Source of the DNA: Candidatus Yanofskyibacteriota bacterium
GTDB lineage: Bacteria > Patescibacteriota > Minisyncoccia > 2-02-FULL-40-12 > GWA2-44-9
Length of the DNA: 49,691 nucleotides
Direction of reading: 5' to 3'
Assembly (NCBI GenBank): GCA_020847715.1
Contig: JADLBM010000024.1
Coordinates: 1-49,691 of the forward strand
The position numbers and the translations under genes are program-made. Shown here one piece after another: positions 43,414 to 48,040 of the stretch. Position 1 is the first letter of the stretch, and each line of letters opens with the position of its first letter. The notes beneath the pieces were generated by a model. The model saw only the letters and a list, made by a program, of their open reading frames with translations. It ran no database searches and was not told the DNA's origin.

Positions 43414-44031
43414 TCACTCCTTGCGGGTGGTCCATGGCCAGAGCGTTTCTGCGGCGCCCTGACACGCATTGTCGACGACTGTACGGATACGCGTCGCCAG
43501 TGACGGCGTCGCAGTGTGAGCGGGTGAGACGATGGAGAGGACGAGGCGCTGGTGCTCATGCGGGAGCCCGGCGAGAACTGCGAGCTCCGTTGCGGTTGCA
43601 CGGAGGATGTAGTCACGGAGCCGCCGCTGCTCCTGCGGGTCGAGCGACCCATAGAATGCGAGCAGTCGTGTGCGTGGTTCATCGCCCAGCTCCCACAGTG
43701 GAGCGGGCCGGCGCTCGTTCTCCGCGGATCGGGTCGGTTCATTCGAGCGAATGTGCTCGATGATGCGCTTCACCTCCTCGCGGATGCCGTCTTCGGCCAC
43801 CTCGCGAACGTAGTTCCCAATCGGACCGGTTGGACCGAAGCGCTGTTGCGCGAGGCGGGAGGCGACGAGGCTGATGGCGCTGATGGCGAGCTGGGCTGCC
43901 CGATTATCGGGAAGGATTCGTTGCTGGAGGAGTTGATGGAGGCGGTCGTAGCCGCTGCCGGGGACGTCGAGGGCGATGGTGCTGACGTCGGCCGCGATGT
44001 CGGACGAAAACTGAGACCACGAAACGGACAT
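43414..44031 (-). CDS. Hypothetical protein
   Basis: MSVSWSQFSSDIAADVSTIALDVPGSGYDRLHQLL; caggagaaacctATG. Confidence 0.7.
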   Translation of the reverse strand: MSVSWSQFSSDIAADVSTIALDVPGSGYDRLHQLLQQRILPDNRAAQLAISAISLVASRLAQQRFGPTGPIGNYVREVAEDGIREEVKRIIEHIRSNEPTRSAENERRPAPLWELGDEPRTRLLAFYGSLDPQEQRRLRDYILRATATELAVLAGLPHEHQRLVLSIVSPAHTATPSLATRIRTVVDNACQGAAETLWPWTTRKE

Positions 44032-44107
44032 AGGTTTCTCCTGAGAGTTCGGTTGTCAAAGCAACCGTTGCTGGGCTTAGAATAACACATTATTAGTATG
44101 AATGTCA

Positions 44108-44150
44108 ATCCTCTAGTATACCGCATGTGGTATGCGGTATACTAGAGGAT
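44108..44150. promoter_or_regulatory. Perfect 19-bp inverted repeat (5-nt spacer) containing the peroxiredoxin promoter
   Basis: atcctctagtataccgcat-gtggt-atgcggtatactagaggat, immediately followed by ATG. Confidence 0.93.
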
Positions 44151-44678
44151 ATGATCAAGATCGGAGCGCCGGCGCCCGCATTCAGCGGGATCACCGCATA
44201 CCAAGCAGGAGAATTCGTGAAAGTGAGTCTTGCTGATTACGCAGGAAAGTGGGCTGTTCTCTTTTTCTATCCTCGCGACTTCACGTTCATTTGCCCGACG
44301 GAAATTCGTGAGTTCGCGAGATTGCAGAGTGCGTTCACTGAGTGTGGGTGCGCTGTTGTTGGCGCGAGCACTGATAGCGAATATAGTCACAAGGCGTGGT
44401 TCGAGCGCGACCTTCCGGAGGTGGCATTTCCCATTCTCGCGGATACAGCACACTCCGTTTCCGCCGCATATGATGTGCTGGGAGCGGATGGCGCGAGTCA
44501 GCGGGGGACATTCATCATCGATCCGGACGGTGTTGTACGCTGGGCCGTCGTGTCCGACAATTCTGTCGGGCGCTCAGTGGGGGAGACCGTCCGCGCGCTC
44601 AAGGCGTTGCAGACCGGCGCGTTGTGTCCGGTCGAATGGGAGCCGGGACAGGAGTTCGTCGGAGGGTCAAAGAAATAA
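44151..44678 (+). CDS. Peroxiredoxin (AhpC/TSA)
   Basis: FFYPRDFTFICPTEIREFARL, GASTDSEYSHKAW, resolving-Cys region GALCPVEWEPG. Confidence 0.95.
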   Translation: MIKIGAPAPAFSGITAYQAGEFVKVSLADYAGKWAVLFFYPRDFTFICPTEIREFARLQSAFTECGCAVVGASTDSEYSHKAWFERDLPEVAFPILADTAHSVSAAYDVLGADGASQRGTFIIDPDGVVRWAVVSDNSVGRSVGETVRALKALQTGALCPVEWEPGQEFVGGSKK

Positions 44679-46582: not shown

Positions 46583-47332
46583 ATGAATTCCGGTTCCGTA
46601 TGGAAGATGGTCGGACTGGTGACCCTCGTCATCCTTGTCGCCTATTCGCTCTGGTATCTTGAGCGCACTCCCTCTCATCGGTTGGCATCGCTCATGGGCA
46701 TCTCGGTGACCGTATCCGATCTCGATGCTCGCCTGAACTCCCCTTCGCCTTCCGCGACCGTCGCTCCAGCATCCGGAAGCGCCCTTGGCGCGGTTGCTGT
46801 CCAGACATTTTCGGGCTCCGTATTGATTCGTCAGGGCGCTGGAACTGCCGTCTCTTCTGACGGTCTCGTGCTGACGACAAGCGCTACGGCTCCGTACGGG
46901 TCTGGCTCATTCGTCTATCAGGTGGCAACTCCGCGGGGCCAGCTCCTTCGCGCGAAGCGCGTCGCGGGTGATCGCACGAGTGGCCTGACGCTTCTGAAGG
47001 TCGATACGACCGATATGTCGGCAGTTGTTTTTGAGCGGGCACCCGACATGCACGCCGGCTCTCTACTGTCAGCGCTTTCTTCTCGAGTCGCCGTCGCTCG
47101 TTTTGTGGCGGAGCGGCTTCCGGTTTGGGTCGTTTCGTGGTCGGATGCCGATGATTCAGTGGTGCTCTCCCTGGATAGGGTTTATGGTGCGCGCATGCAT
47201 GGTGCGCGACTTCTGGATGAGTCAGGACGGTCCATTGGCCTGTTGCGGTGGGGTGCACAGCCGAGCATCATCGGTGCGGATGTGATCAACGCATTTCTGG
47301 AGCAGTATCTTGCGAACGAGGATACCCCATGA
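46583..47332 (+). CDS. Membrane-anchored trypsin/HtrA-like protein with degenerate catalytic residues
   Basis: FSGSVLIRQGAGTAVSSDGLVLTTSATA; DRTSGLTLLKVD; HGARLLDESGRSIGLL. Confidence 0.6.
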   Translation: MNSGSVWKMVGLVTLVILVAYSLWYLERTPSHRLASLMGISVTVSDLDARLNSPSPSATVAPASGSALGAVAVQTFSGSVLIRQGAGTAVSSDGLVLTTSATAPYGSGSFVYQVATPRGQLLRAKRVAGDRTSGLTLLKVDTTDMSAVVFERAPDMHAGSLLSALSSRVAVARFVAERLPVWVVSWSDADDSVVLSLDRVYGARMHGARLLDESGRSIGLLRWGAQPSIIGADVINAFLEQYLANEDTP

Positions 47333-47910
47333 CGAGCACACGAAACGCTATTGAGCGATACGCAATCCGCGCTGTTGTTGCCCTTGCGGCCGCATCATCG
47401 CAGAGCGAAGAACCTGAAGTGACTATTCAGATGCGCGAGGATGCCGCACATCTTATGACGCTCTGTATTGCGGGAGACACCGTACTGCGCGCTGAAGGGC
47501 GACAGTGGTGCGACGATACAACCGGATTCCTCCAGCGGTGGCGTACTCACGGGGTACTCTCGGAGCAGGCGGCGCTTTCTGCCGCTACTGCAGTGCTTCG
47601 TCTGCGTTTGGTGCTGGCTCGTTCCGATGGAGTGACGATTGCTTCGGAGAAGAAAGTTCAGGAAAAAAAGGTCATTGCCTCGCCGGTGGTGAAGCGACCA
47701 CAGCCACAGCCGGAAGTTGAGGGAAGTCAGAAGCGTGTTCTCGCATACATTTTTGAACATCCGGCTGTTCGCACGGGGACGCTTGTTGCCGCACTTACGC
47801 CGAGTATCTCGTCTCGTACCGTAAAGCGGTGCGTGAAAGAGCTCGTGGCCTCCGGTTTGATACGGCGAGCGGAGCTTCCAGATGGAGGAGTGGCGTATAC
47901 GGCGAATTGA
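47329..47910 (+). CDS. Hypothetical protein with C-terminal winged-helix-like domain
   Basis: ATGA overlap; KRVLAYIFEHPAVRTGTLVAAL...SSRTVKRCVKELVASGLIRRAELPDGGVAY. Confidence 0.6.
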   Translation: MTSTRNAIERYAIRAVVALAAASSQSEEPEVTIQMREDAAHLMTLCIAGDTVLRAEGRQWCDDTTGFLQRWRTHGVLSEQAALSAATAVLRLRLVLARSDGVTIASEKKVQEKKVIASPVVKRPQPQPEVEGSQKRVLAYIFEHPAVRTGTLVAALTPSISSRTVKRCVKELVASGLIRRAELPDGGVAYTAN

Positions 47911-47942: not shown

Positions 47943-48040
47943 GTATGCGGACTCATACCCTGCCATGACCGTTTCCGTTGGCCGTAATCCCTCCTCGGCT
48001 CACGGAAACATCAGTCATGGCAGGATATGAACTCGCATAC
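47943..48040 (+). ncRNA. Structured leader or candidate small RNA: 27-nt imperfect stem plus 7-bp inner stem, CCUCCU loop
   Basis: Arms 47943-47969/48014-48040 (23 of 27 complementary) and 47972-47978/48002-48008; directly downstream of a strong promoter. Confidence 0.65.

Follow-up and report, generated by a model that had tools for sequence, protein, structure and literature searches.

A -10-like hexamer close before the start codon is read as a signature of leaderless bacterial genes (PMC3160421). In the leaderless 'TA-like' promoters, which carry TANNNT (PMC3160421; PMC3898074), the -10 hexamer ends 5-11 nt before the ATG, there is no -35 element and a Shine-Dalgarno sequence is not needed. 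Symmetric -10 elements on both strands characterize the bidirectional promoters of Warman and Grainger (PMC12825309, PMC10268837), defined by divergent starts that are 7-25 bp apart and by reciprocal overlap of the -10 elements (PMC10268837). The type-2 operators of CsoR are G-tract pseudopalindromes (TAC-N9-GTA) with the published consensus ATATACCCCTNAGGGGTATAT (PMC3902906). Finally, a single template-switch event has been reported to generate a perfect hairpin (PMC8794818), and in such quasipalindrome mutations (PMC8794818, PMC7202029) one arm looks as if the reverse complement of its partner had been written over it, leaving a perfect stem.

We describe here a perfect palindrome that adjoins a peroxiredoxin gene in the window, by which we mean the whole analysed stretch of 49,691 nucleotides. 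The putative promoter in its right arm resembles the TA-like class in the position of its -10 hexamer, in having no -35 and in its apparent independence of a Shine-Dalgarno sequence, but the consensus here is GGTATACT with a TGn extension, and the peroxiredoxin promoter is accompanied by an exact inverted copy of itself. As in bidirectional promoters, symmetric -10 elements face both ways; however, the predicted starts are about 43 bp apart and the -10 elements do not overlap, which places the locus outside that definition. With the CsoR operators it shares the AGTATAC...GTATACT palindrome overlapping a -10 just before an ATG, yet its arms measure 19 rather than 9-12, the span 44115-44143 is longer and has no G-tract, and the gene that follows encodes a peroxiredoxin and not a repressor, in a genome in which no CsoR was found. 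The overwritten appearance of one arm resembles that of a template-switch product, although in this case the ancestor is not reconstructable from the two available relatives.

Geometry and chance expectation of the palindrome

The palindrome occupies positions 44108-44150 and consists of a left arm, ATCCTCTAGTATACCGCAT (44108-44126), a 5-nt spacer, GTGGT (44127-44131), and a right arm, ATGCGGTATACTAGAGGAT (44132-44150). The arms are complementary at 19 of 19 positions (19+5+19 bp), and the final base lies directly 5' of the peroxiredoxin ATG at 44151. TATACT is found at 44138-44143, 7 nt upstream of this ATG, and its mirror image AGTATA at 44115-44120, with 17 nt between the two. This is the arrangement that the earlier note had described, namely a perfect 19-bp hyphenated palindrome with the spacer gtggt that ends at the ATG and carries TATACT in one arm and its mirror in the other, and every element of that description holds. 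The gene itself (44151-44678, plus strand) encodes a 175-aa 2-Cys-type peroxiredoxin, AhpC/TSA (Pfam PF00578, E 8.7e-37, with relatives in the PDB), with its cysteines in FTFICPTE and LCPVEW; identity is 84% in the genus-mate G002 and 76% in the other.

Genome-wide counts were made on all 26 contigs (687 kb) of a fragmented assembly that is 94% complete. Under an independent-base model, perfect 19-bp arms with a spacer of 0-20 nt are expected 8e-5 times per 687-kb genome and 6e-6 times per window. The 19+5+19 palindrome is real and not a product of chance. In the whole genome there are 88 perfect inverted repeats in which each arm measures at least 12, and most of the long ones are terminator-like, with G+C-rich cores. 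Five have arms of at least 19, and the other four of these resemble G+C-cored terminators. Among these 88, only the palindrome at 44108-44150 directly adjoins an ATG with its final base. A genome-wide search did not find its arms elsewhere as a palindrome, and a mobile or repeated element was rejected on this basis. An intrinsic terminator was also rejected, because the stem lacks a U-tract; no terminator-like site was found in the region, in agreement with what had been claimed before.

The right arm as a predicted leaderless promoter

Within the right arm lies GGTATACT (44136-44143, plus strand), which is the -10 element at 44138-44143 with its upstream GG. This motif is present in 48 copies in the genome where about 14 are expected, an enrichment of 3.5x, and 29 of the 48 copies are located 3-12 nt upstream of an ORF of at least 60 codons that begins with ATG. 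The equivalent proportion for the reversed control, TCATATGG, is 1 of 11. The distance from GGTATACT to the ATG is mostly 5-11 nt and peaks sharply at 6-8 nt. Counts of the pattern GGTATACT-N5-9-ATG are 26, 21 and 16 for the three genomes of the genus, as compared with 0, 1 and 1 for the reversed-pattern controls. A logo derived from 62 TATACT/TATAAT sites at that distance from the ATG reads T-G-G-TATACT, with no -35 visible. In having a -10-like hexamer that precedes the start codon by about 5-12 nt, the peroxiredoxin gene belongs to a genome-wide class. The enrichment of GGTATACT, its short distance to the ATG and the lack of a -35 make it most likely that the peroxiredoxin mRNA is leaderless. 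This assignment, like every promoter assignment in this work, is computational. By these statistics the right arm, with a -10 score of 13.0 bits, reads as an ordinary core promoter of the leaderless, -35-less, extended -10 type. The suggestion that it serves as the peroxiredoxin promoter is thus borne out, and the genome-wide behavior of GGTATACT allows its type to be named.

In the library searched, no paper on leaderless promoters was found for this group of small-genome bacteria; for this group the analysis adds a core-promoter consensus obtained by computation, TGG-TATACT without a -35 and with the start at the ATG. The 15-mer GCGGTATACTAGAGG, the core of the peroxiredoxin promoter, recurs identically upstream of a leaderless gene (C8:31991) and of a prepilin gene (C22:56377); a repeated element was considered for these copies and rejected, since the 15-mer is promoter sequence. 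CTAGAGG is strongly avoided genome-wide, with 15 occurrences found and 90 expected, yet GCGGTATACTAGAGG promoters account for 4 of these 15.

The mRNA start is most likely at 44150 or 44151, as predicted from the promoter type, which puts the palindrome upstream of the start; therefore it would not be transcribed into the peroxiredoxin mRNA. This bears directly on the idea that read-through RNA carries the 19-bp stem and that the resulting hairpin hides the peroxiredoxin start or ends transcription. The predicted stem is indeed very stable (-51.8 kcal/mol for 111 nt, z -7.0), but a leaderless promoter leaves it outside the mRNA, no U-tract follows it, and the upstream neighbour runs in the opposite direction, so that little read-through is expected. 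We consider a role as an RNA hairpin highly improbable.

The left arm and the divergent gene

Read on the minus strand, the left arm reproduces the core promoter of the right arm exactly, with a mirror-image GGTATACT at 44115-44122 that also scores 13.0 bits, and from it a minus-strand start near 44107-44108 can be predicted. The gene that such a start would face (43414-44031, minus strand) encodes a 205-aa helical protein and is the divergent neighbour of the peroxiredoxin gene in all three genus members, with 56% and 36% identity in the genus-mates. Searches of Pfam, NCBIfam and the PDB found no match for the protein, and its AlphaFold model is of low confidence (pLDDT 50). The divergent gene was considered as a possible regulator and rejected, for it has no family and no PDB match and the model is too poor to search.

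This gene appears to possess a promoter of its own on the minus strand (44079-44108), consisting of TTGACA (44108-44103), an interval of 18 nt and TATTCT (44084-44079) with TG before the -10. No other sigma70-type site was found in the region, and TTGACA-18-TATT is present at the matching position in G002 and G001. The gene has a Shine-Dalgarno sequence, AGGAG (44038-44042, minus strand), and is leadered, unlike the peroxiredoxin gene. The promoter nearest to the divergent ATG (44031) is this -35/-10 pair at 44108-44079 and not the TATACT mirror. Since the separate promoter and Shine-Dalgarno sequence are in place, and the promoter is present in both genus-mates as well, the left arm is not required for the divergent gene. 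An inverted repeat, ACATT-N9-AATGT, lies between the -35 and the -10 of the divergent gene and is more perfect in G002 (ACATTAAacgacTTAATGT, L133).

The earlier note had proposed a symmetric divergent promoter/operator. If both arms acted as promoters, the right arm would be used for the peroxiredoxin and the left arm for the 205-aa gene, and the two would be coupled. True divergent leaderless pairs, with mirrored -10 elements and an ATG on each side, do occur in the class (G149, G185, G306, G368), and one is present in the same genome, where leaderless promoters at C8:55845 (minus) and C8:55890 (plus) have mirrored GGTATACT motifs and an ATG on both sides. The left-arm -10 is identical to that of the right arm, and to this extent the proposal stands: the arm is competent in sequence. 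However, the divergent gene has the separate promoter and Shine-Dalgarno sequence described above, the left-arm start would be about 76 nt before its ATG, and the mirrored -10 is absent from G002, where the corresponding sequence scores 1.8 bits. The divergent gene could use the left arm but would not depend on it, and we regard coupled use of both arms as distinctly unlikely. In the divergent leaderless pairs of the class, the mirrored -10 elements share one short intergenic stretch (G149 L186/L199, G185 L187/L200, G306 L185/L198, G368 L184/L197).

Origin and possible function of the mirror copy

Comparison with the genus-mates sheds some light on the symmetry. The left arm plus loop is 35% identical to G002 and the right arm 68%; outside the arms the values are 77% for the divergent promoter, 66% for the 5' UTR and 80% for the coding start. 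In G002, CTATACTAG is kept before the ATG in the right arm (10.9 bits), and the counterpart of the left arm is a poor -10, with 1.8 bits versus 13 bits here. The differences from G002 cluster in the left arm and loop (35% versus 66-80% around them); this comparison is unpolarised, there being two close relatives and no outgroup near enough. G002 has an imperfect inverted repeat, CCTAGCATCGCG..CGCTATACTAGG, matched at 10 of 12 positions, and that of G001 is shorter and also imperfect (7 of 8). The scores of these repeats are reached by 7 and 8 of 95 leaderless promoters, respectively, and that of the G002 repeat by 31 of 2000 shuffles. The spacing between half-sites (AGTAT/AGCAT to ATACT) varies across the genus, being 19, 18 and 13 nt. 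The symmetry, as this alignment reads, is weakly present in the genus and perfect only in this species, with the differences concentrated in one arm. No comparable palindrome was seen in any of about 30 other peroxiredoxin upstream regions examined across phyla, and a palindrome conserved across phyla was rejected accordingly. The earlier reading had been made to depend on conservation in relatives, and on this point it largely fails, with only weak quasi-palindromes in the two genus-mates.

The explanation that we favor, with about even confidence, is that an ordinary leaderless promoter in the right arm has been joined by a recent, exact inverted copy of itself, made by a template switch and not needed for the peroxiredoxin gene. 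The housekeeping polymerase would recognise GGTATACT and start at or beside the A of the peroxiredoxin ATG. The copy in the left arm most likely arose when replication switched template inside a pre-existing imperfect inverted repeat. Imperfect repeats in G002 and G001 would supply the quasi-palindrome that a template switch needs, and a repeat that is perfect here and imperfect in the genus-mates, with the differences in one arm, fits copying within such a sequence. The left arm is probably unneeded for peroxiredoxin expression, and we infer that a dedicated regulator is lacking. With its full -10, the left arm may give rise to weak leftward transcripts from a start that lies upstream of the promoter of the divergent gene, and the two arms could not be occupied by polymerase simultaneously. 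As a perfect palindrome at a promoter that seems to be of recent making and not a conserved feature, the locus is a case that can be tested. Two points count against this by-product view. Quasi-palindromes surround this -10 in each of the three genus members and hint that the symmetry itself may have been kept, and in the class as a whole a mirrored -10 over a leaderless start is often the operator of a repressor that presumably regulates its own gene.

The latter point leads to a tentative alternative, less probable than template-switch copying but deserving weight, in which the palindrome serves as an operator. A repressor, in dimeric or tetrameric form, would bind both arms, cover the leaderless -10 and keep the peroxiredoxin off until a signal arrives. 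In a survey of 384 genomes of the class, AGTATAC-N3-30-GTATACT-N4-10-ATG was found at 24 places in 18 genomes, and the reversed control at 10. At four of the 24 places, in G009, G349, G151 and G330, a CsoR-family gene has the mirrored AGTATACCCC..GGGGTATACT over its leaderless promoter, and the G-tract palindromes there match the type-2 consensus (PMC3902906). An AbiEi-antitoxin-like regulator in G100, another of the 24 places, has the same layout, and several further places are divergent pairs of leaderless genes. Taken together, these sites suggest that regulation through a palindrome placed on a leaderless -10 is plausible for the class, and the persistence of quasi-palindromes in G002 and G001 is consistent with it. 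Nevertheless, no CsoR, Fur, Rrf2 or LysR family member was matched in this genome, the arms enclose no G-tract, the half-site distance changes across the genus, no second palindromic copy of the candidate operator was found in the genome, and perfect identity over 19 bp is more than repressors need. PF02583 (CsoR) is absent from this genome (G000), G001 and G002 and present in G009 and G013. The mirror copy may be a regulatory switch or a replication accident; the promoter itself is ordinary. The layout shown here, with a palindrome on the leaderless -10, is one also seen at CsoR-family genes elsewhere in the class, where CsoR-type operators lie directly over the leaderless -10 and ATG (L171, G009:C9:33133-33164; L183; L190; L193).

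A more specific form of the operator reading, that an undescribed peroxide- or thiol-responsive repressor covers the leaderless -10 and blocks peroxiredoxin transcription at the start codon, seems to us unlikely. If true, it would place such a repressor in minimal bacteria where the usual peroxide regulators were not found. In the 94% complete assembly there was no match to the Fur/PerR, Rrf2, LysR/OxyR or CsoR families, and none to MarR (the family of OhrR) over the cut-off. The redox regulation suggested earlier consequently gains no support, the single candidate being a 220-aa protein (window 47248-47910) whose C-terminus carries a weak MarR_2-like winged helix, below the curated cut-off. 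This protein is encoded about 2.6 kb downstream of the peroxiredoxin gene and is a possible regulator. The interval that separates the winged-helix gene from a lamin-tail-domain gene holds an inverted repeat of 27 nt (85%; window 47943-48040), whose arms are 44 nt apart.
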